A DNA stretch of 64,000 bases from Acidovorax sp. Leaf160. GTDB taxonomy: Bacteria; Pseudomonadota; Gammaproteobacteria; Burkholderiales; Burkholderiaceae_C. Numbering within the stretch: position 1 is the stretch's first letter; the number at the start of each line of letters is the position of its first letter. A model generated the notes under the pieces. It was not told the DNA's origin. It worked only from the letters and a program-made list of their open reading frames with translations, and ran no database searches. The stretch spans positions 425,416-489,415 of the forward strand of contig NZ_LMOV01000023.1 of the NCBI RefSeq assembly GCF_001424265.1. Reading direction: 5' to 3'. The translations under genes were made by a program, and so were the position numbers. This document shows, one piece after another, positions 207 to 63,292 of this stretch.

Positions 207-260
207 AAAAGTGCCTTTCGCGCTTAATCAACAAGGGGATAGCGCTATTAATTTGATAGC
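207..260 (-). repeat. Copy A of a 54-bp dispersed palindromic element (GCTAT-N7-ATAGC-N20-GCGC)
   Basis: Read on the minus strand it has GCTAT at 260-256, ATAGC at 248-244, GCGC at 223-220, GGC at 214-212 and TTTT at 210-207. It overlaps the last codons and stop of rph (TAA at 250-248) and ends five bases before the rdgB start codon, so it makes up the whole rph-rdgB spacer. The first two blocks can form a 5-bp hairpin with a 7-base loop. Confidence 0.85.
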
Positions 261-994
261 GAATGCCGCTGCAGCGCCACCAGCTCGCCGACACCTTTCT
301 CGGCCAGCGCCAGCAGGCGGTCCATCTCCTGGCGCGTGAACGCGGCGCCCTCGGCCGTGCCCTGCACTTCCACGTAGTGGGCCGCGCCTTCACCGTTCAC
401 CGTCATGACGACGTTCATGTCGGTGTCGCAGGCCACGTCTTCCACATATTCCAGGTCGAGCACGGGGGTGCCGTTCACGATGCCCACCGAGATGGCCGCG
501 AGGGGCGCGGTGATCGGCGAGGCCGCCAGCTTGCCGCTGGCGATCAGCGTGGCGACCGCATCCTGCGCGGCCACCCAGGCGCCCGTGATGGCCGCCGTGC
601 GGGTGCCGCCGTCGGCCTGGATCACGTCGCAGTCGAGTTGCAGGGTGCGCTCGCCCAGCGCCTTCAGGTCGAACACCGCACGCAGGCTGCGGCCGATCAG
701 CCGCTGGATCTCCTGGGTACGGCCGTTCTGCTTGCCGCGCGCGGCCTCCCGGTCGCTGCGCGTGTGGGTGGAGCGCGGCAGCATGCCGTATTCAGCCGTC
801 ACCCAGCCTTCGCCACTGCCGCGCTTGTGCGGGGGCACGCGCTCTTCGACCGACGCGGTGCACAGCACCTTGGTGTTGCCGAATTCGATCAGCACCGAGC
901 CTTCGGCATGCATGGTGTAGTGGCGCGTGATGCGCACCGGACGCAACTGGTCGACGGCGCGGGCGCCAGGGCGGGTGAAGGCAGCGGTGATCAT
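248..994 (-). CDS. rph: Ribonuclease PH
   Basis: RNase PH is the phosphate-dependent 3' exoribonuclease that trims tRNA 3' ends. The 248-residue product is about family length (usually near 240). Visible family motifs are [20 protein letters not shown] (phosphate and RNA binding), [14 protein letters not shown], and [18 protein letters not shown] with the conserved acidic residues. I chose the ATG at 994; the frame stays open to a TTG at 1018 but those extra residues (LTTEHHF) do not look like the family. The last residues LSN and the stop codon come from repeat copy A, so the C-terminal end is probably strain-variable. It likely forms an operon with rdgB downstream. Confidence 0.95.
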
Positions 995-1099
995 GAAGTG
1001 ATGTTCGGTGGTCAGCAAAATAGGGCAGTCGCTGGGCGCGGAGCCACGGATGGAAAGACCAGCGTGGCAAGGCCGGCGCGGCGGGGCCCGCTGCGGCCT

Positions 1100-2002
1100 T
1101 CAGGCCTTGCGGGCAGCAGATCGGCGGATCGCTTCGTTGATCTCGGCAATGGAACGCTCGATGGCTTCGTCGTCCAGATCGTCGTCGAAACCCTCCGGCG
1201 GGCCGCCCTGGATGGTGGAGGCGAACACACCGTCGCTGATGCTTTCGGTGCTGATGCCCTGCGTGGAATCGAAGGTGTCCGGCGTTTCCCACTCCATTGC
1301 CACGACGGTGACGTTGTCGCTGAAACTGCCGGCCTTGCGCAATGCGTCCTCGACCAGGTCAGGCACCGCGACGGACACCGGCTGGCGGCCGATCTGGCGC
1401 GCGATGTCGGCGTCTTCCAGTGTGCCCCAGAGGCCATCGGAACAGAGCAGCAGACGGTCGCCCTGCTCCAGCACCAGCGGCCCGGCCAGGTCGTAGATGG
1501 GCTTGGAGGGTGAGCCCAGGCAGGTGAAGAGCACGTTGCGGTTGACGTGTTCCGGCCCGGACTGCGGGTTGTTGCGCAGTTCCAGGTACGAATGGTCGCG
1601 CGTGCGGGCCAGCACCTCACCGCCGCGCACCAGATAGAGCCGTGAGTCGCCGCAATGCACCCAGCAGGCCCGGCCGTTCTGCACCACGGCGGCGACCAGC
1701 GTGGTGCGGGGCGTGTCGAGCATGCCGCGGTCGCTGGCATGGCGCAGCACCTGCTGGTGCGCCGCGAGCAGCGCAGTGGACAGGAATTCCCGCAGGTCGT
1801 TCAGTGCCGGCTTGGCCTCGCGCTGAAACCATGCCGACACGGTCTGGATGGCGATCTGCGCGGCCACTTCGCCATCGGGATGGCCGCCCATGCCGTCGGC
1901 CAGCACGAACAGGCACGCCTCCCGCGTGTAGCAGTAACCCATCCGGTCTTCGTTCTTGTCGCGGCCGCCGCGCCGGCTGACCTGGAATACCGAGAACTTC
2001 AT
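1100..2002 (-). CDS. PP2C/PPM-family serine/threonine phosphatase
   Basis: A 300-residue metal-dependent protein phosphatase. The PPM motifs are complete and in order: GRDKNEDRMG (metal-binding Asp), LADGMGGHPDGEVAA, GDSRLYLVRGGE, DHSYLELR, LLLCSDGLWG and SDNVTVVAMEW near residue 250. An acidic, Ile-rich C-terminal tail of about 45 residues (DDDLDDEAIERSIAEINEAI) lies outside the catalytic domain. Its ATG overlaps the stop of the upstream kinase by 4 bp (1999-2002), so the two are translationally coupled and should act as a kinase/phosphatase pair on shared substrates, which the sequence does not name. No signal peptide or membrane segment is seen, so it is cytoplasmic. Confidence 0.9.
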   Translation of the reverse strand: MKFSVFQVSRRGGRDKNEDRMGYCYTREACLFVLADGMGGHPDGEVAAQIAIQTVSAWFQREAKPALNDLREFLSTALLAAHQQVLRHASDRGMLDTPRTTLVAAVVQNGRACWVHCGDSRLYLVRGGEVLARTRDHSYLELRNNPQSGPEHVNRNVLFTCLGSPSKPIYDLAGPLVLEQGDRLLLCSDGLWGTLEDADIARQIGRQPVSVAVPDLVEDALRKAGSFSDNVTVVAMEWETPDTFDSTQGISTESISDGVFASTIQGGPPEGFDDDLDDEAIERSIAEINEAIRRSAARKA

Positions 2003-3015
2003 TTCGGCTTTCCGCCGAACCGGGTTGCCTCGCCCATCTTCTGCACGTTCTTCTTGGTGTCGGCCACCAGCGTGTCGAGCTGCAGCCGCATCTTTTCGCC
2101 CATCGTCAGCTTGGTGTAGCGGCGCTCGCCCTCGCGGCTGAGTTCCTTTTGCAGCGCGAAGACGGACTGCGGCCGAGACAGCGGATCGAGCGCCATGCAC
2201 CACTCCACCACTTCGATCAGGTTGTCGGAATAGACACCCCGCAACTTGGTGAGCGCCAACGCCAGCCGGTCCTTGTCGGTCCGCTGGGGCGCCTCGTTCG
2301 GTGGAAAGCCCTGCATGCAGGCGTAGATGCAGGCACCGATGGCATAGATGTCGGTCCACGGCCCCATCTGCGCATCGCGCCGGTACATCTCCGGGGCCGC
2401 GAAGCCGGGGGTGTACATGGGACGGATGAAATTGCCTTCCTTGGACAGCACCTCGCGCGCCGCGCCGAAGTCGATCAGCACCGCCTTGTTGTCGTCGGTG
2501 ATGAAGATGTTGGCCGGCTTGATGTCCAGGTGCAGCATCTTGTGCTGGTGCACGATGCGCAGGCCCCGCAGCACCTCGTCGAAGAGCGAGCGGATGGTGG
2601 ATTCCCGGAACACCTTCTGGGTCTTCAGGTCGCGCGCGGTGATGATGAAGTCCTGCAGGGTCGCGCCCTCCAGGTAGTTCATCACCATGTAGACGGTTTC
2701 GTTCTCGCGGAAGAAATTCAGCACGCTCACGACCGAGGCGTGCGAGATCTGCGCGAGCGACCGGCCCTCTTCGAAAAAGCTCTTGAGGCCCAGCCGGTAG
2801 AGCGACAGCTTCTCGGGCGGCACCTTGGGCAGCAGCTCGCCGGGTTCGCGCGTGGCGAGCGATGAAGGGAGGTATTCCTTGATGGCGACCTGCTGGCCGT
2901 CGGGCCCGGTGGCGAGGTACACCACGCCGAAGCCGCCTGCGGACACACGCCGGATGACGCGGTAACCGCCAATGAGGGTTTCGGGAGGCAAAGGTGCCGG
3001 CTTGATCTTGGACAT
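1999..3015 (-). CDS. Eukaryotic-like serine/threonine protein kinase
   Basis: A 338-residue soluble kinase. Visible parts are the glycine-rich loop SAGGFGVVY (residues 25-33), the ATP-binding lysine in VAIKEYLP (K46), the catalytic loop HLDIKPANIF, in which the usual HRD is HLD, then LIDFGAAR (DFG) and the GFAAPEMY activation-segment end. There is no PASTA, transmembrane or other sensor domain; about 60 residues after the kinase core are of unknown role. The ATG at 3015 is favoured because it begins shortly before the domain and leaves a 75-bp divergent gap to yicC that must hold both promoters. The 4-bp overlap with the PP2C gene indicates one transcript. Confidence 0.9.
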   Translation of the reverse strand: MSKIKPAPLPPETLIGGYRVIRRVSAGGFGVVYLATGPDGQQVAIKEYLPSSLATREPGELLPKVPPEKLSLYRLGLKSFFEEGRSLAQISHASVVSVLNFFRENETVYMVMNYLEGATLQDFIITARDLKTQKVFRESTIRSLFDEVLRGLRIVHQHKMLHLDIKPANIFITDDNKAVLIDFGAAREVLSKEGNFIRPMYTPGFAAPEMYRRDAQMGPWTDIYAIGACIYACMQGFPPNEAPQRTDKDRLALALTKLRGVYSDNLIEVVEWCMALDPLSRPQSVFALQKELSREGERRYTKLTMGEKMRLQLDTLVADTKKNVQKMGEATRFGGKPK

Positions 3016-3090
3016 ATTCTGCGAAGAAGACTCGGGCACGAATCGGAACCGGGATAATCGCCTGTTTTGCAAGCAACCACCGAAAGTCCC

Positions 3091-3999
3091 ATGGCAGTTT
3101 ACAGCATGACCGGATACGCCAGCGCCCAGCACGGCGCCTCCGCGGCGGACACCGAATCCGAGGCGCCGACGCGCCGTCTGGGGCTGGAAATCCGCTCGGT
3201 CAACAGCCGCTTTCTGGATCTGTCGTTCCGCCTGTCCGACGAGTTGCGGTCGCAGGAGCCCGCGCTGCGCACCTTGCTCACCGCCAAGCTCAAGCGCGGC
3301 AAGGTCGAGGTGCGCGCCTTCATCGAGAACGCCGACACCGGCGCCCTGCCCGACCCCGCGCCACGCCTGCTGCAGCGCCTGAACAGCCTGCAGGACGCCG
3401 TCAAGGCCTGGTTGCCCCAGGCCGCGCCCCTGAGCGTGGCCGATGCGCTGCGCCTGTGCGGCAACATCTCCGGCCCGGCAGAAGACTGGAGCGAGGCCGT
3501 CCCGGCGCTGGCCGAAAAGGCCTTGAAGGACCTGCTGGCCGCCCGGGAGCGGGAAGGCAAGCGCCTGGTCGCCATGCTGCAGGACCGACTGGGCCAGTTG
3601 CGCGCCCTGGCCGCGCAGGCCGTGCCGCTGGTGCCGCAGCTGGTGGAGCAGCACCGGCAACGCTTTCTGGAGCGCTGGAACGAGGCGCTCAGCGCGGGCG
3701 AAGGCACGGTCAACGCCGACGCCGCGCGCGACCGCGCCCTGACCGAGGCCACCGCCTTCGCCATTCGCATCGACGTGGCGGAAGAGGTCACACGGCTGCA
3801 ATCGCATCTGGATGAAATCGAGCGGCTGCTGAAAAAGGGCGGCGAAATCGGCAAGCGCCTCGACTTCCTCATTCAGGAGTTGCACCGCGAGGCGAACACG
3901 CTGGGCTCGAAATCTGCGGCGCTCGATCTCACACGCATCAGCGTGGACATGAAAGTGCTGATCGAGCAGATGCGCGAGCAGGTGCAGAACATCGAGTGA
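3091..3999 (+). CDS. yicC: YicC-family endoribonuclease
   Basis: A 302-residue member of the YicC/YloC family. The N-terminus MAVYSMTGYASA is the family hallmark, and the C-terminal DUF1732 block is seen as EEVTRLQSHLDEIERLLKK followed by GKRLDFLIQELHREANTLGS, holding the conserved acidic and His residues. E. coli YicC is a stress-linked RNA-degrading endoribonuclease; that role is transferred from the family. The frame opens earlier, but the ATG at 3091 gives the family N-terminus. It starts the yicC-gmk-rpoZ-spoT run, the standard betaproteobacterial order, and is divergent from the kinase gene. Confidence 0.92.
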   Translation: MAVYSMTGYASAQHGASAADTESEAPTRRLGLEIRSVNSRFLDLSFRLSDELRSQEPALRTLLTAKLKRGKVEVRAFIENADTGALPDPAPRLLQRLNSLQDAVKAWLPQAAPLSVADALRLCGNISGPAEDWSEAVPALAEKALKDLLAAREREGKRLVAMLQDRLGQLRALAAQAVPLVPQLVEQHRQRFLERWNEALSAGEGTVNADAARDRALTEATAFAIRIDVAEEVTRLQSHLDEIERLLKKGGEIGKRLDFLIQELHREANTLGSKSAALDLTRISVDMKVLIEQMREQVQNIE

Positions 4000-4000
4000 T

Positions 4001-4034
4001 AATTCAATTTTGATAGCAGCTAGCGCAGACGCCG
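4001..4034 (+). repeat. Copy B, degraded form of the GCTAT/ATAGC element
   Basis: The 36-bp yicC-gmk spacer contains ATTTTGATAGC (ATAGC at 4013-4017) and then AGCTAGCGCAG, which matches the middle of the better copies. The left GCTAT arm is lost (AATTC instead) and the GCGC block at its expected position is absent. It is listed as a relic; on its own it would not be called. Confidence 0.45.
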
Positions 4035-4035
4035 T

Positions 4036-4656
4036 ATGGACTATCCCGGAAATCTCTTTGTAGTGGCAGCACCCAGCGGTGCCGGCAAGTCGAGCCTGGT
4101 CAAGGCCCTTCTGGAGCTCGACTCCCACGTTCAGCCTTCGGTGTCGCACACCACCCGCGCACCGCGCGGCCAGGAAAAGCACGGACGTGAGTACTTCTTC
4201 ACGTCGGACCAGGAATTCGACGCGATGGTCGCGTCCAACGGTTTCGTCGAATGGGCGCACGTGCACGGCCGGCGCTACGGCACGTCCCGCAAGGCCATCG
4301 AAGAACGCGTTGCCGAAGGTGCCGACGTGGTGCTGGAGATCGACTTCCAGGGCGCCATCCTGATCAAGGAAGCCTTTGCCAACGCGGTGCTGATCTTCAT
4401 CCTGCCCCCCAGCTGGGAAGAGTTGCGGTCACGCCTGGAGCGGCGGGGCGAAGACGCGCCCGACGTCATTGAGATGCGGCTGCAGAATGCGGCCGGCGAG
4501 ATGGCACAGGCGTGCAAATTCGACTTCGTTATAATCAACGAGTTATTTGAGCGTGCGCTTTTCGACTTGAAAACCATCGTTCACGCACAGCGCCTGAAGT
4601 TCGCGGCCCAGCGCCGCACCCGCGCCGACACTTTCGAGTCGCTCAACATCTCCTGA
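4036..4656 (+). CDS. gmk: Guanylate kinase
   Basis: Phosphorylates GMP or dGMP to the diphosphate with ATP, an essential step of guanine nucleotide supply. The 206-residue product has the P-loop [11 protein letters not shown] (about residues 12-22), the GMP-binding [21 protein letters not shown] and the lid-region [17 protein letters not shown]. It lies between yicC and rpoZ with short spacers and feeds the GDP/GTP pool used by SpoT encoded just downstream. Confidence 0.96.
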
Positions 4657-4677
4657 TCCCTTTTCCAGAGAACCATC

Positions 4678-4881
4678 ATGGCCCGCATCACCGTCGAAGA
4701 CTGCCTTGAAAAGATCCCCAACCGCTTTCAGCTGGTGCTGGCCGCGACCTACCGCGCCCGCATGCTGAGCCAGGGCCATGCCGCCAAGATCGAAAGCCGC
4801 AACAAGCCCGCGGTGACGGCACTGCGCGAAATCGCCGACGGCAAGGTCGGCCTGGAAATGCTCAAGAAGGTTCCAGGCTGA
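4678..4881 (+). CDS. rpoZ: RNA polymerase omega subunit
   Basis: The 67-residue omega subunit binds the beta-prime C-terminus, helps RNA polymerase assembly and forms part of a ppGpp-binding site. The sequence [20 protein letters not shown] and [16 protein letters not shown] is typical, and the length matches short betaproteobacterial forms. The gene follows gmk by 21 bp with a purine-rich GAGAACC before the ATG. A strong terminator follows at 4917-4946, so spoT is probably transcribed separately or by read-through. Confidence 0.95.
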
Positions 4882-4916
4882 TCGCAGTCCGCAGTCCGGC
4901 CAGCCGCCGAATTGTC

Positions 4917-4946
4917 AAAAAGCACCGCGCTGCGGTGCTTTTTTTT
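4917..4946 (+). terminator. Rho-independent terminator after rpoZ
   Basis: A perfect 8-bp stem, AGCACCGC (4921-4928) with GCGGTGCT (4932-4939), has a 3-base loop and is followed by T at 4940-4946. The preceding AAAA lets it pair in the reverse direction too. It ends the yicC-gmk-rpoZ transcript before spoT. Confidence 0.9.
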
Positions 4947-4988
4947 GCCTGAAATGTCGGTTTGCCGATCGCAGGCTACATTTGAGGG

Positions 4989-7259
4989 ATGACAGTGGTG
5001 TTGAACAAGCCCTCCGTTTCCGATGGACTTCCCGGCCATGCCCCGCGCGGCGCCAGCACGTCTGCGGCCGCCGCCAACGCTGCGGCAGCGAGCTTCGCAG
5101 CCCTGCTGGAGAACCTGGACTACCTGGATGCCGCCAGCATCGAGCAGATCCGGCAGGCCTATCGCTTTGCGGACGAGGCCCACCTGGGTCAGCTGCGCAG
5201 CAGCGGCGAACCCTACATCACCCATCCGATCGCGGTCGCCGCGCAGTGCGCCACCTGGAAACTCGACGCACAGGCCCTGATGGCCGCCCTGCTCCACGAC
5301 GCCATGGAAGACTGCGGCGTCACCAAGGCCGACCTGATCGACCGCTTCGGCGCACCGGTGGCGGAACTGGTCGATGGACTGACCAAGCTCGACAAGCTGC
5401 AGTTCGACACCCGCGAAGAGAATCAGGCCGAGTCCTTCCGCAAGATGCTGCTGGCCATGGCACGCGACGTGCGCGTCATCCTGATCAAGCTGGCGGACAG
5501 AACGCACAACATGCGCACCCTGTCCGACATGCCCCGCAGCAAGTGGGGCCGCATCTCGTCCGAGACGCTCGAAATCTATGCGCCCATTGCGCACCGCCTG
5601 GGCCTGAACCAGACCTATCGCGAGCTGCAGGACCTGTCGTTCCGCCACCTCCACCCCTGGCGGTATGCCACCCTGTCGAAAGCCGTCAACAAGGCCCGCA
5701 ACCGCCGGCGCGACATCGTTCAGCGCGTGCAGACCGAAGTGGACGCCGCGTTTGCGCGCATCCACATGAACGTGCGGCTGGCAGGGCGTGAAAAGACGCT
5801 CTACGCCATCTACCAGAAGATGGACACCAAGCACCTGAGCTTCGCCCAGGTGACCGACATCTACGGCTTCCGTGTGATCGTGCCCACGGTCACCGATTGC
5901 TACACCGCGCTGGGTGTGCTGCACCAGATGTACAAACCGGTGCCTGGCCGGTTCAAGGACCACATTGCCATCTCGAAGCTCAATGGCTACCAGTCGCTAC
6001 ACACGACGCTGGTCGGCCCGTCGGGCGTGAATATCGAGTTCCAGATGCGCACCGAGGAAATGCACGTCGTCGCCGAAGCGGGTGTGGCGGCGCATTGGCT
6101 CTACAAAGCGCACGACTCGGACGGCACGGCCGCCGAGCGCATGGGCACGAAGTGGCTGCAGTCGCTGCTCGACATCCAGAACGAAACCCGGGACGCGGCG
6201 GAGTTCTGGGACCACGTCAAGGTCGATCTCTTCCCTGATGCGGTGTACGTGTTCACCCCCAAGAGCCAGATCATGGCCCTGCCCAGGGGCGCCACCGTGG
6301 TGGATTTCGCCTACGCCATCCACAGCAACGTGGGCGATCGCACCACGGCCGCCAAGATCAACAACGAGCAGGTGCCGCTGCGCACCGAACTCAAGAACGG
6401 CGACGTGGTGGAAATCATCACGGCACCCGTGTCGACACCCAACCCCGCCTGGCTGGGGTTCGTGCGCACCGGCCGTGCGCGCTCCAAGATTCGGCACTAC
6501 CTGAAGACACTGGCCCACACCGAATCGGCGGGGCTGGGCGAGAAGCTGCTCACCCAGGCGCTGCGCGCCGAAGGCCTGGAACAACTGCCTGACGAAGAGA
6601 GCAATCACGCCCTCTGGGAGAAGTTGTTGCGCTTCACGGGCAACCGCAGCCGGGTGGAGCTGATGACCGACATCGGCCTGGGCAAGCGCATCGCCGGCAT
6701 CGTCGCCAAGCGGCTGGTGGTGCTGATGTCGGAACACGGCCACCGGCCCGACGCCCTGCTGCTCACGCGCGAGCGCTACAGCTCGCATGAAAACCTCTCG
6801 CAGGGTGGCGTGACGCTGGACGGCAGCGAAAACGCATCGGTGCAATACGCCCACTGCTGCCGCCCCGTGCCCGGCGACCCGATCGTGGGCTACCTGGGCA
6901 AAGGTGAAGGGCTCGTCGTTCACAACAGTGCCTGCAGCGCCGCGAAGAAGCTGCAGCACCGCGACAGCGAACGCTTCATTGCCGTAGACTGGGCTGACGA
7001 GCCGACCCGCATGTTCGAAACCGGCGTGGTGGTGACGGTGTCGAACGGCAAGGGTGTGCTGGCCCGGGTGGCTGCGGAACTGGCGAGTTCGGAAGCGGAT
7101 ATCGTGCACGTGGAGATGGACGATGCCGCTGCGATGGACACCACGGATCTGCGCCTGATCGTGGCTGTCCGTGATCAGGCCCACATGGAGTCTGCGCTAC
7201 GCAACCTGCGCCGCACGAATGCGGTGTTGAGAGCCTTCAGGGTACTGCCGCAGACCTGA
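4989..7259 (+). CDS. spoT: Bifunctional (p)ppGpp synthetase/hydrolase (SpoT/Rel type)
   Basis: Makes and degrades the alarmone (p)ppGpp. The 756-residue protein has a Rel-type layout: HD hydrolase domain with intact LLHDAMEDCGV (about residue 105), synthetase domain with YQKMDTKHLSFAQVTDIYGF and NGYQSLHTTL (about 250-360), TGS domain beginning DLFPDAVYVFTPKSQIM, and a C-terminal ACT domain. Retention of HDxxED argues for an active hydrolase, so SpoT is preferred over RelA, and the rpoZ-spoT order agrees. The start at 4989 is the first ATG after the terminator; the first 35 or so residues are Ala/Ser-rich and poorly constrained, so the true start could be slightly inside. The stop lies within an 8-bp tandem repeat. 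Confidence 0.93.
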   Translation: MTVVLNKPSVSDGLPGHAPRGASTSAAAANAAAASFAALLENLDYLDAASIEQIRQAYRFADEAHLGQLRSSGEPYITHPIAVAAQCATWKLDAQALMAALLHDAMEDCGVTKADLIDRFGAPVAELVDGLTKLDKLQFDTREENQAESFRKMLLAMARDVRVILIKLADRTHNMRTLSDMPRSKWGRISSETLEIYAPIAHRLGLNQTYRELQDLSFRHLHPWRYATLSKAVNKARNRRRDIVQRVQTEVDAAFARIHMNVRLAGREKTLYAIYQKMDTKHLSFAQVTDIYGFRVIVPTVTDCYTALGVLHQMYKPVPGRFKDHIAISKLNGYQSLHTTLVGPSGVNIEFQMRTEEMHVVAEAGVAAHWLYKAHDSDGTAAERMGTKWLQSLLDIQNETRDAAEFWDHVKVDLFPDAVYVFTPKSQIMALPRGATVVDFAYAIHSNVGDRTTAAKINNEQVPLRTELKNGDVVEIITAPVSTPNPAWLGFVRTGRARSKIRHYLKTLAHTESAGLGEKLLTQALRAEGLEQLPDEESNHALWEKLLRFTGNRSRVELMTDIGLGKRIAGIVAKRLVVLMSEHGHRPDALLLTRERYSSHENLSQGGVTLDGSENASVQYAHCCRPVPGDPIVGYLGKGEGLVVHNSACSAAKKLQHRDSERFIAVDWADEPTRMFETGVVVTVSNGKGVLARVAAELASSEADIVHVEMDDAAAMDTTDLRLIVAVRDQAHMESALRNLRRTNAVLRAFRVLPQT

Positions 7260-7290
7260 GGACCTGAGGACCTGAGGACCTGAGGACCTA
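7253..7290. repeat. 8-bp tandem repeat (GACCTGAG x4) at the spoT stop codon
   Basis: GACCTGAG occurs at 7253-7260, 7261-7268, 7269-7276 and 7277-7284, followed by a partial GACCTA. The first copy contains the spoT stop (TGA 7257-7259). Eight-base units placed after the stop would not change the protein if their number varied. Confidence 0.9.
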
Positions 7291-7336
7291 ACGAGCTGCC
7301 TTTCGCAGCCGAGGCTTCAGCCCGGCGGGCAACGAG

Positions 7337-7915
7337 TCAAGTGGCTGCGGCCTGCCGCACCGGATAGCGGACTTTCATCACCTCCAGCGTGCGCAGTCCG
7401 CCTGGGGTCTGCAACGATACCGCGTCCCCCTCGCGGGCCTTGAGCAATGCCCGCGCGACGGGCGAAATCCAGCTCACCTGGCCCCGTGCGTTGTCCGCTT
7501 CGTCCACCCCCATGATGGTGATGGTGCGCTCTTCGCCTTCGTCGTCCGCATAGGTCACCGTGGCGCCGAAGAAGATCTGGTCGCTGCCATCGTGGACGCT
7601 CGGGTCTACCACCTCTGCAATCTCCAGGCGCTTGGTCAGAAACCGGATGCGGCGATCAATCTCCCGCAGACGCTTTTTCCCGTAGAGGTAGTCGCCATTT
7701 TCCGACCGGTCGCCGTTGCTCGCGGCCCAGTGCACGACGTCCACGATCTTGGGGCGTTCGGTGTCCATCAGTTCCAGCAGTTCCGAGCGCAGTCGCTCGT
7801 ACCCTGCAGGCGTGACATAGTTCTTGCTGCCTTGCGGCAACGCTGGAGCGGGCAAGCCGCCAGCGTCGTCATCGTCTTCGGCCGCGTCGTTTTCTTTGGT
7901 GAAAGCTTTACTCAT
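7337..7915 (-). CDS. greB: Transcript cleavage factor GreB
   Basis: GreB rescues backtracked RNA polymerase by stimulating cleavage of the extruded RNA. The 192-residue product has the family coiled coil with ASNGDRSENGDYLYGKKRLR (acidic loop at the tip) and C-terminal FKBP-like domain ending in GQVSWISPVARALLKAREGD. The N-terminus carries an extra acidic stretch (ENDAAEDDDDAGG) and about 25 residues before the usual start, longer than E. coli GreB. The ATG at 7915 is preferred; upstream in-frame sequence is arginine-rich and not family-like. It converges on spoT. Confidence 0.92.
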   Translation of the reverse strand: MSKAFTKENDAAEDDDDAGGLPAPALPQGSKNYVTPAGYERLRSELLELMDTERPKIVDVVHWAASNGDRSENGDYLYGKKRLREIDRRIRFLTKRLEIAEVVDPSVHDGSDQIFFGATVTYADDEGEERTITIMGVDEADNARGQVSWISPVARALLKAREGDAVSLQTPGGLRTLEVMKVRYPVRQAAAT

Positions 7916-8013
7916 TGCATCGCAGTTGTAGCCGGGTCGGAGCGTTCCGGTTCCCCCCCTTAAAGCGCCAAAAGGCCGCCGGATTCTGGCAGCCTGCCGA
8001 ACGAGCCCACGAC

Positions 8014-8247
8014 TCAATGGTGGGCAGGTGGGTCTTGCACCGGCTGGTCGCCTCCCGGTTGCGCTGGCGGGTCATCGACTTCCGGCTGGGGCACCCATTG
8101 GGGTGACGGAGGCGTGTCCAGCGGCGGCACAGGTTGCGGCTGTGGGCCACCGGGTTGGGGTGACGGAGGCGTGTCCAGCGGCGGCACGGGTTGCGGCTGT
8201 GGGCCACCGGGTTGGGGAATGGACTGGAACGAGGAAGGCTGGAGCAT
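8014..8247 (-). CDS. Small proline-rich protein built from a tandem repeat
   Basis: A 77-residue protein of unknown function. After MLQPSSFQSI come two nearly identical 20-residue units, each starting PQPGGPQPQPVPP and ending in LDTPPSP, then a Pro/Asp/Gln-rich tail to VQDPPAHH. The DNA repeat is close to perfect. A good ribosome site (AAAGGA) sits about 7 bases before the ATG at 8247, which is the main reason to accept it as a gene. No signal peptide, Cys or hydrophobic segment is present, so it should be soluble and disordered. It opens a gene-poor stretch downstream of greB. Confidence 0.55.
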   Translation of the reverse strand: MLQPSSFQSIPQPGGPQPQPVPPLDTPPSPQPGGPQPQPVPPLDTPPSPQWVPQPEVDDPPAQPGGDQPVQDPPAHH

Positions 8248-10885: not shown

Positions 10886-10895
10886 TAAGCTTTGA

Positions 10896-11079: not shown

Positions 11080-11087
11080 GCTGTAGT

Positions 11088-15765: not shown

Positions 15766-15808
15766 GCTATCAGGACAATAGCTGGTTGCGCTTATTCAGC
15801 GGCCTTTT
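15766..15808 (+). repeat. Copy C of the GCTAT/ATAGC element, with an internal deletion
   Basis: GCTAT (15766-15770), seven bases, ATAGC (15778-15782), then TGGTTGCGCTTATTCAGCGG, which fits positions 18-37 of the template. The expected GCGC block is missing and GGCCTTTT (15801-15808) follows directly, as if about ten bases were deleted. It lies between the converging rapZ and mutY ends. Confidence 0.75.
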
Positions 15809-15896
15809 CAGGTCGATTCCTGCTCAACCCCTTGTGATACGGGCGCAACCAGCTATGAAAAGAAGAGCAACTGCGTGTACTGCACCGTGTTGCCGG

Positions 15897-25860: not shown

Positions 25861-25914
25861 GCTATTGATTCGATAGCGAGAGGCGCTTAATGCGCGGGCG
25901 CCCGCGCCTGAAAA
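25861..25914 (+). repeat. Copy D of the 54-bp GCTAT/ATAGC element
   Basis: GCTAT 25861-25865, seven bases, ATAGC 25873-25877, twenty bases, GCGC 25898-25901, GCC 25906-25908, AAAA 25911-25914. It fits the 54-base template without gaps and fills the spacer between the converging pth and ferredoxin genes. It has an extra GC-rich palindrome (GCGCGGGCGCCCGCGC) around the GCGC block. Confidence 0.85.
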
Positions 25915-25923
25915 CGCCGCGAT

Positions 25924-29360: not shown

Positions 29361-30295
<935 letters not shown>

Positions 30296-34204: not shown

Positions 34205-34228
34205 TCGCCAAGCCACCAACTTTCGGCC

Positions 34229-34282
34229 AAACGGGCTTCCCGCGACCTACCCATAAGGCGATACAGCTATAAATACCATAGC
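34229..34282 (-). repeat. Copy F of the 54-bp GCTAT/ATAGC element
   Basis: On the minus strand GCTAT 34282-34278, ATAGC 34270-34266, TCGC in place of GCGC at 34245-34242, GCCC near 34236-34233, TTT 34231-34229. Block distances equal the template. It lies in the spacer after the hypothetical gene. Confidence 0.8.
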
Positions 34283-39817: not shown

Positions 39818-40786
<969 letters not shown>

Positions 40787-42900: not shown

Positions 42901-42944
42901 GGCGGCGATGGTACCAGCGAAGCGGCAGCGCGGGAGTGCAAGGG

Positions 42945-42998
42945 TTTTTGGCCTGCTGCGCCCATAAACAAAGCACTTCTAGCTATTATTTTGATAGC
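42945..42998 (-). repeat. Copy G of the 54-bp GCTAT/ATAGC element
   Basis: On the minus strand GCTAT 42998-42994, ATAGC 42986-42982, GCGC 42961-42958, GGCC 42953-42950, AAAAA 42949-42945. Block distances equal the template. It lies in the folE upstream region, between folE and the cardiolipin synthase gene, so it is probably transcribed in any clsB-to-folE read-through. Confidence 0.85.
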
Positions 42999-46549: not shown

Positions 46550-46602
46550 GCTATTGTTTTTATAGCAACAAACCCATATGTATCAAGCGCAAATGCCCAA
46601 AA
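46550..46602 (+). repeat. Copy H of the GCTAT/ATAGC element (53 bp)
   Basis: GCTAT 46550-46554, ATAGC 46562-46566, GCGC 46587-46590, GCC 46595-46597, AAAA 46599-46602. It is one base shorter at the end than the other full copies. It lies in the spacer between the converging receiver-TPR and nudB genes. Confidence 0.85.
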
Positions 46603-46616
46603 CCGCCTGGAATCGG

Positions 46617-52562: not shown

Positions 52563-52662
52563 GGCATGCTCCTCGATGTCGCGAAGTGGGTGGAGGGGGG
52601 TGGCGTCGAACGACGGAAACGGAAACGGAGAGGAAAACGCCGGAGCGCGTGCAGCGAATCCG

Positions 52663-54818: not shown

Positions 54819-54825
54819 AGTCCCC
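54797..54825 (-). promoter_or_regulatory. Terminator-like hairpin enclosing the ubiJ start codon
   Basis: On the minus strand GGGGACT (54825-54819) pairs with AGTCCCC (54808-54802) and TTTTT follows (54801-54797). The 10-base loop is ATGGCAACAC, starting with the ubiJ ATG. The structure can end transcription from the Tim44-like gene 95 bp upstream and, when formed in mRNA, would hide or present the start codon and a GGGGA that could act as ribosome site. Confidence 0.7.
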
Positions 54826-54919
54826 GATTATTCCCTGAACTGGCCGCAGTGCACGCGGGCTTTGACCCCACTGCCCCACGGCCATCGGGCGCCGCGCCGT
54901 GCGGCGCGCCCTCACAGGA

Positions 54920-55960: not shown

Positions 55961-56000
55961 GTCATCTCCTGTTGATCTTTATCGAGCCCGCGCGCGCGGG

Positions 56001-56732
56001 TCAGCACTTGATTCCAACATGCAGCGCCACCATTCCGCCAGTCATGTTGTGATAGTCCACATGTCCAAAGCCATTTTGCTGCATGAGGGATTTGAGCTCC
56101 TCCTGCCCCGGATGCATGCGGATCGACTCGGCCAGGTAACGGTAGCTGGCGTCGTCGCCTGCCACCAGCTTGCCCAGGCGCGGCAGCACCTTGAACGAAT
56201 ACCAGTCGTAGGCTTTTTCGAGCGGCTTGGCGACCTTGGAGAATTCCAGCACCAGCAGCCGGCCGCCGGGCTTGAGCACGCGGCACATCTCGGCGATGGC
56301 CACGTCCTTGTGGGTCATGTTGCGCAGGCCGAAGGCCACGCTCACCACGTCGAAATGCGCGTCGGGAAACGGCAGCCGCTCCGCATCGCAGACCAGCGTG
56401 GGCAGCACCAGGCCTTCGTCGATCAGGCGGTCGCGGCCGACGCGCAGCATGGACTCGTTGATGTCGGTGTGCACCACCCGGCCGGTGGTGCCGACCTTGC
56501 GGGCGAAGGCGCGTGCGAGGTCGCCCGTGCCGCCAGCAATGTCCAGCACCTGGCTTCCTTCGCGCAGGTTCGCGACCATGACCGTATAGGCCTTCCAGGC
56601 GCGATGCAGGCCTGCCGACATCAGGTCGTTCATGACGTCGTACTTGGAAGCGACCGAATCGAACACGCCGCGCACGTGGCGCGCCTTGTCCTGCTCGTCG
56701 ACCGATTGGAAACCGAAATGCGTGGTGCTCAT
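56001..56732 (-). CDS. ubiE: Ubiquinone/menaquinone biosynthesis methyltransferase UbiE
   Basis: C-methylates the quinone ring in ubiquinone synthesis. The 243-residue product has the family start [23 protein letters not shown]-binding motif [21 protein letters not shown], motif [22 protein letters not shown], and [20 protein letters not shown]. It heads the ubiE-Tim44-ubiJ-ubiB run on the minus strand. The DUF971 gene lies upstream, 272 bp away. Confidence 0.97.
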
Positions 56733-56860
56733 GCCCCGATGTTAGGCGCCGGCCCGGGGGGCGTACAGCGACAACCCCCTGGGGGCCTGGGGCATCTGTC
56801 GCTTGCAGGTTGAAAGATGCCCCTGGAACGTGCCGACGATGTGCCAGGAGGCCTGCCCAG

Positions 56861-56904
56861 GGACGTGCAAGGGACGTGCAAGGGACGTGCAAAGGACGTG
56901 CAGA
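56861..56904. repeat. 11-bp tandem repeat upstream of ubiE
   Basis: GGACGTGCAAG occurs at 56861-56871 and 56872-56882, GGACGTGCAAA at 56883-56893 and a partial GGACGTGCAG after it. A looser related ACGTGCC is at 56827. It lies in the 272-bp spacer between ubiE and the DUF971 gene, where the ubiE promoter should be. Confidence 0.85.
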
Positions 56905-57004
56905 CGTGTCGCCGGGATGGGCGGCAGCGCCCGGTGCGCGGGGCCCGGTGCGCACCGGGCCATGCGTTGCGCGCGGCGCGGTGATGCGCGCGTAGCTTGC
57001 TCGC

Positions 57005-57439
57005 TCAGTGCCCGCCGCCGCAGCCGTGGCCGTGGGCATGGCCGCCGGCCGGCTTGGCTGCCATGGGCGCATCGCGGTCCACGCCGGCCGCCGCGAGCCG
57101 CGCTGCGTAGTCGTTCCAGAGCGCCGCTTCTTCGCGGCCCAGCTGGTAGAGGTAGTCCCACGAGAAGATGCCGCTGTCGTGGCCGTCGGAGAACGTGGGC
57201 TTGACCGCGTAGTTGCCCACGGGCTCCAGCGACACCAGCGTCACGTCGCGCTTGCCGGTCTGCAGCACCTCCTGGCCGGGGCCATGGCCCTGCACCTCGG
57301 CCGAGGGCGAATACACGCGCATCAGCTCGAAGGGAATGCGGAAGGCCGCGCCGTCGGAGAATGTGACTTCCAGCACGCGCGAGGCGCCGTGCACCGTGAT
57401 TGCTTGCGGCGTGGGAGCGCCTGCGGTCAAACCTGCCAT
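57005..57439 (-). CDS. DUF971-family protein with His-rich C-terminus
   Basis: A 144-residue protein with one DUF971 domain (AITVHGASRVLEVTFSDGAA, KPTFSDGHDSGIFSWDYLYQ), the domain also found at the N-terminus of gamma-butyrobetaine hydroxylases. Its role when alone is unclear; it is usually upstream of ubiE, as here. The last residues, GGHAHGHGCGGGH, are a strong metal-binding type tail and are not part of the core domain. The ATG at 57439 gives a short Ala/Gly/Thr start before the domain. Confidence 0.88.
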   Translation of the reverse strand: MAGLTAGAPTPQAITVHGASRVLEVTFSDGAAFRIPFELMRVYSPSAEVQGHGPGQEVLQTGKRDVTLVSLEPVGNYAVKPTFSDGHDSGIFSWDYLYQLGREEAALWNDYAARLAAAGVDRDAPMAAKPAGGHAHGHGCGGGH

Positions 57440-57635
57440 GGAGATTGCACCTGTCCTTGCTGTGGAACTGACTGGGGGAAAGAGAACGGCCCGCATTGTC
57501 ACACCGCGCCCGCAAGATCGGCCACGCCGGCCGCGCCCAGCCCCAAGGGCAGGCGGCAGCGGCCCCTGCGGGCATTGACCCTCCCGACCATCGCGGTTAC
57601 CTTTGCTTGCAAGGCAAGCCCCACCCTCATCGTTC

Positions 57636-58700
57636 ATGCAAGCGACTTCCCCTCCGGCGACGCAACCCAGCCTCGCGCACAAGGCGTTCTGGATCATGTC
57701 GCGGCGCGTCACCGTGATGGCGGCCGGGGTGGACCTGGCGTTCCTGCCGCTGTTCCTGGCGTTGGGCTCGCCCCTGCTGGCCTGGCTCAACGTGCTCAGC
57801 ATGGCGCTCTACGCCACCGCCTACTGGCTGCTGCTGCGCCGAGCCAACAGCGCCGCCCTGCTGCTGATCTGGCTGGAGGTGACGGGCCATGCCGCGCTGG
57901 GCACCTGGCTCATCGGATGGGACAGCGGGTTTCACTACTACCTGCTGATGTTCATCCCCGCCATCACCGTCAGCGCCCGCCATCTGGCACGCCCCGCCCT
58001 GCTCCTGCTGGTGCTGTTCGGTTTCTATCTCGGGCTGCATGCGTTGTCGCACCATGCCGGCGCGCAGATGCCGCTCACCGACCATGGCCTGGCCGTGGTG
58101 CATGGCTTCAATGTGGCCGTGGTGTTCTGCATGGCGGCCTACACGGCCCGCTTCTACTACGCCACCGTGCGCCGGGCAGAGGCGCAGCTGCAGGCCCAGG
58201 CTGCCACCGATCCGTTGACGGGCCTGTCCAACCGCCGCAGCCTGATCGCCCGCGCCGAGCAGACCCTGGTGCGGGCGCGTGCCGCAGGCCGGCCCACGGC
58301 CCTCGTCATCGCGGACATTGACCACTTCAAGCAGATCAACGACCGCCATGGCCACGATGCCGGCGACCAGGTGCTGGTGAGTACGGCCGAGCTGCTGCGC
58401 GGCGCAAGCCGGGCTCAGGACATGGTGGCGCGGTGGGGCGGCGAGGAGTTCCTGGTGCTGCTGCCGGACACCTCCCTGGAGGACGCGCAATCGGTGGCCG
58501 AGCGCATCCGCTGCGCCGTGGCGGGCCATGCCACTCACCCAGCCGGCGCGCCGCTCACCGCGACACTCTCCCTGGGGGTGTGCGAGGTGCGGGGCGACGA
58601 GTCGCTGTCCGGCGCCATCGCCCGGGCCGACGGCGCGCTCTACCAAAGCAAGCAGGCCGGGCGCAACCGCGTGACGGTCGCCGGCAGCGGCGCCGGCTGA
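57636..58700 (+). CDS. Membrane-bound diguanylate cyclase (GGDEF)
   Basis: Makes c-di-GMP. The 354-residue product has about six hydrophobic N-terminal segments (AGVDLAFLPLFLALGSPLLA, AITVSARHLARPALLLLVLF, and others) of an undefined sensor type, then a GGDEF domain from TDPLTGLSNRRSLIARAEQT, with metal/GTP residues in VIADIDHFKQINDRHGHDAG and active-site GGEEF in MVARWGGEEFLVLLPDTSL. The inhibitory I-site RxxD is present as RAQD five residues before GGEEF, so it should be feedback-controlled. The ATG at 57636 is preferred over upstream sequence. It is convergent with the HIT gene. Confidence 0.92.
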   Translation: MQATSPPATQPSLAHKAFWIMSRRVTVMAAGVDLAFLPLFLALGSPLLAWLNVLSMALYATAYWLLLRRANSAALLLIWLEVTGHAALGTWLIGWDSGFHYYLLMFIPAITVSARHLARPALLLLVLFGFYLGLHALSHHAGAQMPLTDHGLAVVHGFNVAVVFCMAAYTARFYYATVRRAEAQLQAQAATDPLTGLSNRRSLIARAEQTLVRARAAGRPTALVIADIDHFKQINDRHGHDAGDQVLVSTAELLRGASRAQDMVARWGGEEFLVLLPDTSLEDAQSVAERIRCAVAGHATHPAGAPLTATLSLGVCEVRGDESLSGAIARADGALYQSKQAGRNRVTVAGSGAG

Positions 58701-58754
58701 ACGGCCGCCCTGGAGGGTGCGGTCGGTTTCGCAGGCAGACCGCCTGCCGCTGCC

Positions 58755-59186
58755 TCACACCAGGCGATCGAGCTGCTTGCGCAGGGCTTGCTCCACCGCC
58801 GGCAAACGCTCGGCCACCTGCGCCTCCAGCGCCGGATCGCGCTCGCGCTGGGGCGCTGCCCAGACGGGCGCGGGAAAGTGGCTGTCCCAGGCGAAACGGG
58901 CGATCACGTGCCAGTGCAGGTGCGGCACCATGTTGCCCAGCGCCGCCAGGTTGATCTTGCCTGGCTGCAGCTCGGCGCGCAGCACCTGCTCCACGACCGT
59001 CACGACCTCCATGCACAGCAGCCGCTCGGGTGCGGACAGATCGGAGAACTCCGCCACGTGCGCGTTCCAGACCACACGGTAGAAGGCGGGAAAGCCCGCT
59101 TCCTCGGCGCGGATGACGCGCAGCTTCTGCCCACGCCACACCAGCACGCCCCCGTCGCCGCCGCACAGCGGGCAGGCCGATGCCAT
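58755..59186 (-). CDS. HIT-family protein
   Basis: A 143-residue nucleotide-binding protein with the histidine triad HLHWHVIARF (HxHxH form) and the family strand RVIRAEEAGFPAFYRVVWNA. Substrate unknown; related proteins hydrolyse nucleoside phosphoramidates or Ap4A. A CPLCGG near the start could bind zinc. Its ATG shares one base with the stop of the large oxidoreductase (TGATG), so the two are translated together. Confidence 0.9.
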   Translation of the reverse strand: MASACPLCGGDGGVLVWRGQKLRVIRAEEAGFPAFYRVVWNAHVAEFSDLSAPERLLCMEVVTVVEQVLRAELQPGKINLAALGNMVPHLHWHVIARFAWDSHFPAPVWAAPQRERDPALEAQVAERLPAVEQALRKQLDRLV

Positions 59187-62100
59187 CAGACCAGCACCCG
59201 CTCGATGCCGCCCGCGTTGGCGCGCTGCACGTATTCGGGCATCCAGTTCTCGCCCAGGATCTCGCGCGCCATCTCGACGACGATGTAGTCGGCTTCGAGC
59301 AGGCCGTTCTGAAGGTCGTCCTGGTAGCGGTTCAGGCCCTGCAGGCAGCTGGGGCAGCTGGTCAGGATCTTCACGTTCTCCTGCGGGGCGACGGCGCCGC
59401 TGGCGCGCAGCTTGGCCTCGCCCTTGCGGATTTCTTCTTCCTTGCGGAAGCGCACCTGCGTGGAGATGTCCGGCCGGGTCACGCCCAGCGTGCCCGATTC
59501 GCCGCAGCAGCGCTCGCTCTTCAGCACCTGCTCGCCCACCAGCGCCTTGACGGTCTTCATCGAGTCCTGCTGCTTCATCGGGCTGTGGCAGGGCTCGTGA
59601 TAGAGGTAGGCGCCCTTGCCCTGCAGCGTGATGTCCTTTTCCAGCAGGTATTCGTGGATGTCGATGATGCGGCAGCCCGGGAAGATCTTGTCGAACTGGT
59701 AGCCCTGCAGCTGGTCGTAGCAGGTGCCGCAGCTGACCACCACCGTCTTGATGTCCAGGTAGTTCAGCGTGTTGGCCACGCGGTGGAACAGCACGCGGTT
59801 GTCGGTGATCATCTTCTCGGCCTTGTCGAACTGGCCGCTGCCCCGCTGGGGGTAGCCGCAGCACAGGTAACCGGGCGGCAGCACGGTCTGCACGCCCACA
59901 TGCCAGAGCATGGCCTGCGTCGCCAGACCGACCTGCGAGAACAGGCGCTCGGAACCGCAGCCGGGGAAGTAGAACACCGCCTCCGTCTCGGCCGTGGTGG
60001 CGGCCGGGTTGCGGATGATGGGCACGTAGTCCTTGTCCTCGATGTCCAGCAGCGCGCGCGCCGTCTTCTTGGGCAGGCCGCCCGGCAGCTTCTTGTTGAT
60101 GAAGTGGATGACCTGTTCCTTCACCGGCGCCGTGCCCACCGTGGCGGGCGGGTGCGCGGTCTGCTTGCGGCCAAAGCCGCGCAGCAGATCGACGGCCATG
60201 CGCTGGGCCTTGAAGCCCACGTCCACCATGGCGGTGCGCATCAGTTTGATGGTGTCCGGGTTGGTGGCGTTGAGCATGCCCATGGCCAGGGCGTTGCCCG
60301 GGCGGAAGGTCTTCTTGCCCATCTTGCGCAGCAGGTTGCGCATGTTCATGGTCACGTCGCCGAAGTCGATCTTGACCGGGCACGGCGTGTAGCACTTGTG
60401 ACAGACGGTGCAATGGTCGGCCACGTCTTCGAACTCCTGCCAGTGCTTGATGGACACGCCCCGGCGCGTCTGCTCTTCGTAGAGGAAGGCCTCGACCAGC
60501 AGCGACGTCGCCAGGATCTTGTTGCGCGGGCTGTAGAGCAGGCTGGCGCGCGGCACGTGGGTGGCGCACACCGGCTTGCACTTGCCGCAGCGCAGGCAGT
60601 CCTTGACCGAATCGGCGATGGCGCCGATGTCGCTCTGCTGCATGATGAGCGACTCGTGCCCCATCAGCCCGAAGCTGGGCGTGTAGGCATTGGTCAGGTC
60701 CGAATACATCAGCGATTCGCGGGTCGAAACGGCCGCTGGCGCTTTTCCTGCCTGGGCAGATTGCTCCGGATTACGTAGCAGCTTGCCCTTGTTGAAGCGG
60801 CCCTGCGGGTCCACGCGGCGCTTGTAGTCGGCGAAGGGGCGCAGTTCGTCGTCGGTCAAGAATTCGAGCTTGGTGATGCCGATGCCGTGCTCGCCCGAGA
60901 TCACGCCGTTCAGGCTGCGCGCCAGCACCATGATGCGCGCCACGGCCTCGTGCGCGGTCTGCAGCATGTCGTAGTCGTCGCTGTTGACCGGCAGGTTGGT
61001 GTGCACGTTGCCGTCGCCGGCATGCATGTGCAGCGCCACCCACACGCGGCCCTTGAGCACGCGCTGGTGGATGGCCTGTGCCTCGTCCATGATGGGTTTG
61101 AAGGCGGCGCCGGCGAAGATCTTGGCGAGCGGCTCGCGCAGCTGCGTCTTCCAGCTGGCGCGCAGGGTGTGGTCCTGCAGCTGCGGGAACAGCGTCTCCA
61201 CGTCACACAGCCAGCCGCTCCACTGCGCCCGCACCTCGCCGATCAGCGCCACGGCCTGGGCGACACGGTCTTCCAGCAGCTCGGCCGACGGAATCTCGTG
61301 CGCGTCGTCCTGGCGGCCCAGCGGCAGGTTGCCGCGCAGGAAGAAATCTTCCAGCGCATCGCACAGCTTGAGCTTGTTGCGCAGCGACAGTTCGATGTTG
61401 ATGCGCTCGATGCCGTCGGTGTATTCGGCCATGCGCGGCAGCGGGATCACCACGTCTTCGTTGATCTTGAAGGCGTTGGTGTGGCGGCTGATGGCAGCCG
61501 TGCGCTTGCGGTCCAGCCAGAACTTCTTGCGCGCCTCGGGGCTGATGGCGATGAAGCCCTCGCCCGCGCGCGAATTGGCGATGCGCACCACTTCGCTGGT
61601 CACGCGCGCCACCGCATCGGCGTCGTCGCCCGCGATGTCGCCGAACAGCACCATCTTGGGCAGGCCGCCGCCGTGCTTCTTGCTCTTGGTGGCGTAGCCC
61701 ACGGCTTTCAGGTAACGGTCGTCCAGATGCTCCAGGCCGGCCAGCAGCACGCCCGAGCGCTTCTGCTCGGCGAACATGAAGTCCTTGATCTCGACGATCG
61801 AGGGCACGGCGTCCTTGGCGTTGCCAAAGAACTCCAGGCACACGGTGCGGGTGTGCGCCGGCATGCGGTGCACCACCCAGCGCGCGCTGGTGATCAGGCC
61901 GTCGCAGCCTTCCTTCTGGATGCCCGGCAGGCCGGAGAGGAACTTGTCCGTCACGTCCTTGCCGAGGCCCTCCTTGCGGAAGGTGCGGCCGGGGATCGCC
62001 AGCTGCTCGGTGCGGATCGGCGTCCTGCCGTCGGCCTCGAAGTACTGCAGCTCGAACGTGGCCGTCTCCACGTCGTGGATCTTGCCCATGTTGTGGTCCA

Positions 62101-63100
62101 GGCGCGTGACTTCCAGCCACTGCGCCTCGGGCGTCACCATGCGCCAGCTGACCAGGTTGTCCAGCGCCGTGCCCCACAGCACGGCCTTCTTGCCGCCCGC
62201 GTTCATGGCGATGTTGCCGCCGATGCACGAAGCCTCGGCGCTGGTCGGATCGACCGCGAAGACGAAGCCCGCGCGCTCGGCCGCGTCGGCCACGCGCTGG
62301 GTGACGACGCCGGCTTCCGTCCAGATGGTGCCCACTTCGCCTTCGATGCCGGGCAGGCGGAGCATCTCCACCTCGGTCATGGCTTCGAGCTTCTCGGTGT
62401 TGATGACCACGCTGCGCCAGGTCAGCGGAATGGCGCCGCCGGTGTAGCCGGTGCCGCCGCCGCGCGGAATGATGGTCAGCTCCAGCTCGATACAGGCCTT
62501 GACCAGCGCGGCCATCTCGGCCTCGGTGTCGGGCGTGAGCACCACGAACGGATATTCGACGCGCCAGTCGGTCGCGTCGGTCACGTGCGACACGCGCGAG
62601 AGGCCGTCGAACTTGATGTTGTCCTTGGCCGTGTGGCGGCCCAGGCGCTTTTGCACCTGGCGGCGCAGCTGCGCGGCTTCCACGAAGGTGGCGTCGAACT
62701 CGGCGATGGCGCGGCGGGCCGCATCGACCAGCTGGCCGACCAGGCGGTCGCGCTCCTCGTCTTCACCGGGAGTGCGGCGCTTGCCGATCTCCGTCAGGCG
62801 GTGCTGCAGCGCCTCCACCAGGGCCTTGCGGCGGCCTTCGTTGTCCAGCAGGTCGTCCTGCAGATAAGGGTTGCGCTGCACCACCCAGATGTCGCCCAGC
62901 ACCTCGTAGAGCATGCGGGCGGAGCGGCCGGTGCGGCGCTCGCGGCGCAGCTGGTCCAGCACGTCCCAGGAGGCAGCACCCAACAGGCGGATGACGATTT
63001 CCCGGTCGGAAAACGAGGTGTAGTTGTAGGGAATCTCGCGCAGACGGGCGGGCTCGGCGGCCTGCGTCTGCAAGGCAGCCAACGCTATCGGAACATTCAT
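59186..63100 (-). CDS. Giant FAD-linked oxidase with Fe-S and CCG domains (DUF3683-type)
   Basis: A 1304-residue fused oxidoreductase. Order seen: an N-terminal DUF3683 region, a PCMH-type FAD domain ([20 protein letters not shown] and [15 protein letters not shown]), the FAD-linked oxidase C-terminal domain ([32 protein letters not shown]), two [4Fe-4S] motifs [17 protein letters not shown] and [14 protein letters not shown], and CCG-type blocks ([47 protein letters not shown]). The plan resembles D-lactate/D-2-hydroxyglutarate dehydrogenases such as YdiJ, extended. Adjacent serA suggests 2-hydroxyglutarate as substrate; this is inference. Electrons should go to the quinone pool. Confidence 0.85.
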
Positions 63101-63238
63101 GGGGTCAACCTGGGTAGGGCGCAGGGCGCGCCCGTCATGCCTCGGGGGACGGGATTTTAATCGCTGCCCGCCCTGCCCGCCCGCCGCCGCGCACGCCCGG
63201 CAGGCGCGCGCGGGCCGCCCGACCCCGATTTTTACGCC

Positions 63239-63292
63239 AAATCAGCCGCAAGCGCCCGTCATACGAGCACCTTTAGCTATCAAATATATAGC
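63239..63292 (-). repeat. Copy I of the 54-bp GCTAT/ATAGC element
   Basis: On the minus strand GCTAT 63292-63288, ATAGC 63280-63276, GCGC 63255-63252, GGC 63247-63245, TTT 63241-63239. Block distances equal the template. It starts one base after the serA stop codon (63296-63294), in the serA-oxidoreductase spacer. Confidence 0.85.

Follow-up and report, generated by a model that had tools for sequence, protein, structure and literature searches.

A long dispersed DNA motif in Acidovorax and other Comamonadaceae as a candidate uptake-type signal

This article deals with a dispersed repeat of Acidovorax sp. Leaf160, first noticed in a 64,000-nucleotide stretch of contig NZ_LMOV01000023.1 ("the window" refers to this whole stretch at its full length). 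The original prediction, made from the letters alone, described nine copies of a 54-bp template with rigidly spaced blocks, and offered three readings: a folded RNA, a protein-recognition site, or a small mobile element. Herein, we report that the copies belong to a genome-wide family, that the motif evolves in place within conserved genes, and that its middle block follows concerted dialects in two species. We then weigh whether it may act as a signal for DNA uptake.

Copies in the window and anatomy of the motif

The window has copies on both strands (Table 1). The seven full copies (A and D to I) lie where they had been placed and keep the block spacing that had been described, with A, F, G, and I on the minus strand and D, E, and H on the plus strand. 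All nine named copies were found, but the count falls short, as one more lies at 60718-60779 and site C holds two. What had been taken for an internal deletion in copy C is really a pair of facing, overlapping copies. For copy B, a weak match does start at 4001, but its left arm is different and not simply lost.

Table 1. Copies of the motif in the 64-kb window, with weight-matrix scores
Feature	Position	Strand	Remarks	Score (bits)
Copy A	199..260	-	motif positions 1-62	63
Copy B	4001..4062	+	weak, different left arm; under the 28-bit working set	25
Copy C	15766..15827	+	first of a facing, overlapping pair	33
Site C, second copy	15807..15868	-	second of the facing pair	45
Copy D	25861..25922	+	intergenic	48
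Copy E	29378..29439	+	between, or at the start of, called genes	46
Copy F	34221..34282	-	intergenic	50
Copy G	42937..42998	-	intergenic	58
Copy H	46550..46611	+	intergenic	64
Extra copy	60718..60779	-	within a called 1296-aa gene, on its sense strand	48
Copy I	63231..63292	-	starts beside a gene of the same strand, at its stop codon	72

Conserved positions run from -1 to about 64 and carry 51 bits of information in total, giving a motif of roughly 62-64 bp. The template thus does not end at 54, as conserved A/T positions continue to 62-64. From left to right, the blocks are GCTAT (1-5), A/T (8-10), ATAGC (13-17), C at 24 and 26, GCGC (38-41), G(G/C)C (46-48, or GGCC at 46-49 in the summary form), and A/T tracts at 51-54 and 61-64. 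Two modules stand out: a palindrome, GCTAT-N7-ATAGC with an A/T center (1-17), and a middle block (24-41) that ends in GCGC. Since the left palindrome is symmetric, orientation is read from the right part.

Several window sites are shared with relatives. At site E, a copy occupies the same position in genomes G111, G114, G108, and G088 (none in G112), and at site G same-place copies occur in G111, G114, G108, and G109, while G112 keeps the palindrome only. The place matching 60718-60779 gives 35-42-bit matches in G111, G114, G108, G109, and G112. For copy I, the relatives' homology restarts at 63293-63296. Site D has a same-orientation copy in G111 and G114 and none in G112. In G088, the site D copy has the opposite orientation, with the palindrome in common and the arms on its other flank, which looks like a motif built anew on a retained core. 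A separate observation concerns site E in G111 and G114, where the copy can be read in frame directly 3' of an ATG that precedes a putative ABC-transporter ATPase.

Abundance and distribution of the family

A count of exact cores, GCTATN7ATAGC, gives 274 for the genome of 4.72 Mb and none for the same pattern reversed. For a finer view, a weight matrix was iterated from 20 aligned seeds across 864 kb, made up of the window and of 400-kb stretches from contigs C1 and C23. It yielded 106 matches of at least 13.5 bits, compared with one of at least 14 bits and three of at least 12 bits in the reversed sequence. The 82 copies of at least 28 bits, after removal of one overlapping opposite-strand match, form our working set and project to about 450 copies per genome. 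In a stricter control, each of the three stretches was searched with a matrix built solely from the intergenic copies in the others. These cross-trained matrices gave 79 matches of at least 25 bits (window 9, C1 36, C23 34). When applied to 400 kb of non-carrier DNA, drawn from five genomes of similar GC content (66.5% versus 68.6%), they found no match of at least 10 bits, and one of the three found three matches of at least 8 bits. This genome-wide excess, together with a block spacing that is kept outside the window, confirms that the repeat family is real.

Copies use both strands (20 plus/19 minus, 24 plus/15 minus, and 17 plus/20 minus in three 400-kb stretches) at a density of about one per 10-11 kb. 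Regular chromosomal spacing was not seen, as the coefficient of variation was 0.84-1.17 against a random mean of 0.96. The matrix behind the strand counts, also used below to compare C1 with genomes G109 and G106, included C1 copies in its training, so the C1 count is not independent and the G109 and G106 counts are.

Among 100 genomes of the family (99 genera), 33 contain at least 13 exact cores and 67 contain 0-7, with 0-4 reversed patterns. Across the class, two of 369 genomes contain a longer form of the pattern (the motif's own genome and one of the same family); only three of the 369 belong to this family. Carriers among the matches listed include Acidovorax, Comamonas, Rhodoferax, Simplicispira, Giesbergeria, Ramlibacter, Diaphorobacter, and Paracidovorax. 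A few of these matches are labeled otherwise (e.g., Rubrivivax and Desulfobulbaceae), and some such labels may reflect misbinned genomes. The remark in the original prediction that similar sequences exist in other Comamonadaceae is borne out by both the class-wide scan and this list. Also among the matches listed, the motif occurs in A. temperans DSM 7270, A. facilis DSM 649, and A. defluvii DSM 12644; the first two are presumably the strains of Davidson et al., known there by their ATCC numbers. In addition, 43 viral-contig stretches contain the longer pattern, and these may be either phage DNA or proviral host flanks.

Within the window's own genus, 11 of 17 genomes hold 78-274 cores and six hold 10-15, which shows that the motif has nearly been lost in the latter. 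One of these losers, G106, has two matches of at least 20 bits in a 400-kb stretch matched to C1, compared with 33 in G109 and 36 in C1 itself.

In-place evolution and concerted dialects

By our own gene calls, 65 of the 82 copies are intergenic and 17 lie within genes, in open frame (12 sense, five antisense). Density is about 24 times higher outside genes (542 versus 23 copies per Mb). The host genes, which appear from their sequences to encode, among others, MurD, AroE, Cca, MiaA, and xanthine dehydrogenase subunits, offer a means of telling insertion from substitution, as an inserted copy would add some 21 residues. When Cca and XdhB were aligned to solved homologs across the motif, no gap of that size appeared.

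MurD and AroE were compared across the same 30 genomes. For MurD, 25 of the 30 were readable (five were not), and eight of these carry the motif (16-53 bits). The corresponding segment measures 55 residues in all eight, and among the 17 without the motif it measures 55 residues in 11 and 57 in six. For AroE, 27 of the 30 loci were used (the three lower-ranked ones, L322-L324, being omitted) and 26 were readable, one not. The motif is present in 12 (23-53 bits), with a 45-residue segment in ten and a 49-residue segment in two, and ten of the 14 genes without it have the 45-residue segment as well. Motif-free versions occur even in carrier genomes (G002 and G031 for MurD; G039 and G071 for AroE).

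Codon use tells the same story. Codons ending in A or T make up 49% over the motif and 9% elsewhere in the same genes, and they are enriched in 17 of 17 cases. With lengths mostly unchanged, this indicates that the motif overlays native codons. The orthologs of ten in-gene sites agree. In G109, six of the ten could be aligned fully, showing no gap in five and four residues in one, and four of the six retain the motif. In G106, four of the ten could be aligned, with gaps of 0, 0, 0, and 1 residue; site 212871 retains the motif, and the alignment at 158142 reaches only 31% identity and may involve a paralog. The remaining four sites in G109 and six in G106 lack a full alignment. As orthologous places with and without the motif show no length change of about 21 residues, the motif arises and decays within genes by in-place substitution, a conclusion that is well supported for these conserved genes.

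Intergenic copies give a less uniform picture. Gaps were measured in both genomes for six C1 sites that have a copy in G109 and none in G106. At four of the six, the G106 gap is shorter by 48-71 bp (11 versus 59 bp at site 227383, 2 versus 73 bp at 246659, 29 versus 83 bp at 288368, and 3 versus 71 bp at 314091). At the other two, it is not (104 versus 82 bp at 199034 and 226 versus 224 bp at 248135). Whole intergenic blocks have thus been gained or lost, which is compatible with insertion and equally with deletion of useless spacer. Between the own genome (G000) and G109, identity in 15 orthologous pairs of copies climbs from about 0.5 at low information content to 0.83 at high; since unrelated copies sampled from that matrix would climb from 0.29 to 0.68, part of this rise is expected.

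The middle block differs between genomes. By our reading, it resembles GCGCTTATNNATCAAGCGC in G000 and GCCCTAGTGGAATATGCGC in G109 and G108. To test whether copies change in concert, we located them with the middle masked and trained the dialect matrices outside the test set of 14 orthologous pairs. (Of the C1 copies, 17 could not be placed in G109, and seven were placed at sites that have no copy there.) The member in G000 matched its own genome's dialect in 13 of 14 pairs, and so did the member in G109 (13 of 14). One pair, 101773, reads site 101725 in the opposite orientation; leaving it out changes the figures to 13/13 and 12/13. Leave-one-out rates for the two matrices were 44/49 and 32/36. 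The AroE copy is one of those whose dialect differs between the two species. That these two species have concerted dialects, with orthologous copies matching the genome they reside in, is therefore well supported. As a side note, the G109 middle block appears, by our reading, in both orientations relative to its flanks (GCCCTAG...TGCGC and its reverse complement), several copies being inverted.

A possible uptake signal and its rivals

Of the three readings first offered, a protein-recognition site fits best, judging from rigid blocks in what is probably recognized as double-stranded DNA on either strand. In-place origin, dialects, and decay in relatives are all marks of DNA uptake sequences, and on these grounds we propose that the motif may be a genome-wide double-stranded DNA recognition motif serving as a long, uptake-type signal. 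We put the chances of this function at about even. In such a scheme, a putative type IV pilus or competence receptor would bind DNA bearing the local dialect of the motif, and such DNA would be preferentially imported and recombined. The uptake bias would then enrich the motif at many loci, a change in the receptor would shift these loci together, and lineages that drop the specificity would let their copies decay. More tentatively, Comamonadaceae could harbor a third independent family of uptake signals that differs from the known short ones, with a long modular motif (a palindrome, a middle block that may also be inverted, as in G109, and A/T tracts), a composite receptor, and concerted dialects that rewrite hundreds of loci, among them genes for conserved enzymes.

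The known systems provide both parallels and contrasts. Like the uptake signal sequences (USS) of Pasteurellaceae and the DNA uptake sequences (DUS) of Neisseriaceae, the motif has many copies on both strands, in and between genes, originates by substitution and not insertion, forms dialects, and decays in relatives. Redfield et al. applied the gap test used above and showed that Pasteurellaceae USS are not insertions (PMC1626085), and dialects of DUS have been described by Frye et al. (PMC3630211). Natural transformation was reported by Davidson et al. for A. temperans, A. facilis, and V. eiseniae (PMC4212676). A. temperans was transformed solely by DNA of its own species. V. eiseniae showed selective binding, and salmon DNA reduced its transformation by at most about tenfold (PMC4212676). 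The accessible text of that paper names no signal sequence for this selective transformation in Acidovorax and Verminephrobacter, for which our motif is a concrete candidate. If the proposal is true, a further lineage has uptake specificity, dialects predict the partners of DNA exchange, and a DNA-level drive rewrites some 20 codons of conserved enzymes at once.

Critically speaking, several points weigh against an uptake role. DUS number in the thousands per genome (PMC3630211) and measure 9-11 bp (PMC4212676), and uptake sequences in general occur at about one per kb. Our motif differs from USS and DUS (9-12 bp) in its length of about 62 bp, its modular build with a palindrome, and its strongly intergenic location (the 24-fold excess given above), and it occurs only once per 10-11 kb. 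G106 also lacks whole blocks of 48-71 bp at four of the six intergenic sites compared. A. defluvii DSM 12644 carries the motif, yet no transformants were detected for A. defluvii, nor for A. delafieldii, in the available part of PMC4212676, and failure of transformation across species can also stem from poor recombination. Finally, ComEC is found in 94 of the 100 family genomes irrespective of the motif, and among the 17 genomes of the genus it has a long open frame in losers as in keepers. In the own genome, by contrast, its frame is short, at 573 aa (G000:C23:141117-142836) versus 852-1045 aa in the other 16. Being present in losers, carriers, and non-carriers alike, ComEC is uninformative as a determinant. 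The N-terminal part of the own ComEC is absent from the frame, either by truncation or by assembly.

A first alternative is that the motif binds an intracellular DNA-organizing protein, acting in nucleoid structure, supercoiling, or segregation, with selection at each site and dialects that track the protein. Any strong DNA-binding protein would be compatible with rigid blocks that use both strands, with in-place evolution, and with dialects, and the A/T content has a weak period of about 10.5 bp (matched by 4.7% of permutations, with other periods equally strong). However, the copies are spaced along the chromosome as if at random, and selection per site would have had to be strong enough at many loci to rewrite some 20 codons in conserved enzymes, which seems hard to justify. 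We consider this explanation unlikely, though it deserves to be kept in mind.

A mobile element of REP or MITE type, which a RAYT/Y1 transposase or some other enzyme would copy and which would overwrite genes where it lands in them, strikes us as rather improbable. Like REP/RAYT systems (TnpA-REP), the motif is palindromic, dispersed, mainly intergenic, and present in hundreds of copies, with a RAYT gene in most carriers. RAYT was initially attractive because it is a single-copy gene in most of them. A Y1_Tnp match occurs in 29 of the 33 carriers, at nine of the first 20 RAYT loci in carriers the 3' end of the gene bears a degenerate copy in antisense, and the four altered intergenic gaps and the facing pair at site C could likewise point to mobility. 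On the other hand, 45 of the 67 non-carriers likewise have a Y1_Tnp match, which G020 lacks despite its 235 cores. Moreover, all 17 genomes of the genus have RAYT, the six losers included, and copy number shows no link to it within the genus. Nor do the concerted dialects and the 62-bp multi-block build suit such an element, and no GTAG or CGTC tag of the kind associated with REP elements (see also the title of PMC3733652) was seen. As RAYT is not confined to carriers and in-gene copies add no 21 residues, we rejected it as the determinant. The mobile-element reading is not supported within genes and keeps some ground between them, where four of the six gaps without a copy are shorter. The RAYT-like gene itself (G000:C25:230500-235200, L045; also L046-L104) occurs as a single copy in both carriers and non-carriers and is about 230-246 codons long. 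It is often flanked by a GGGGTCAGATTCCAATTA-like sequence upstream and by TGTCCC and an inverted GAATCTGACCCC downstream, and it resembles a long-established transposase that has ends of its own.

The least probable reading is a transcribed element at gene 3' ends (a terminator or mRNA-stability structure). In its favor, 45 of 65 intergenic copies lie behind a gene of the same strand (p 0.024), and copies avoid divergent gaps (5 of 64 versus 21.8% expected, p 0.006). Against it, clear co-variation is missing, five of the 17 in-gene copies are antisense, and an Rfam search of the window returns three tRNAs only. A folded RNA is likewise not supported. In a chimera test on the 82 copies, the pairing of each copy's own 5' and 3' halves was compared with that of shuffled halves for three candidate hairpins. 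Clear co-variation was not found (z -1.3, -0.9, and +0.1, with 5, 9, and 28 of 60 shuffles reaching the real value), so own halves pair hardly better than shuffled ones.

Among described repeats, the Beta-proteobacterial repeat element (BRE) is also comparable, being reported from Bordetella and Comamonadaceae, usually intergenic, and sometimes located wholly in coding sequence (PMC3110155). According to the accessible text of that paper, BRE is about 90 bp long, has a mean GC content of 69% in Bordetella, forms tandem arrays, and reaches at most 29 copies per genome. Our motif, unlike BRE, is dispersed, partly A/T-rich, and present in hundreds of copies, a distinction drawn from the description of BRE and not from its letters. 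No comparable element of Comamonadaceae turned up in a term search of the available text of PMC2817692, PMC3733652, and PMC6006769, and a search of the open literature for this repeat, or for uptake in its family, listed two papers; any novelty of the motif is limited to these searches. Whatever its function, a 51-bit motif that evolves in place and has concerted dialects is poorly explained by transposons or by ordinary regulator sites. Apart from the motif, the window contains a low-complexity (GGTGGC)n run at 40680-40780, with many short matches across the genus.

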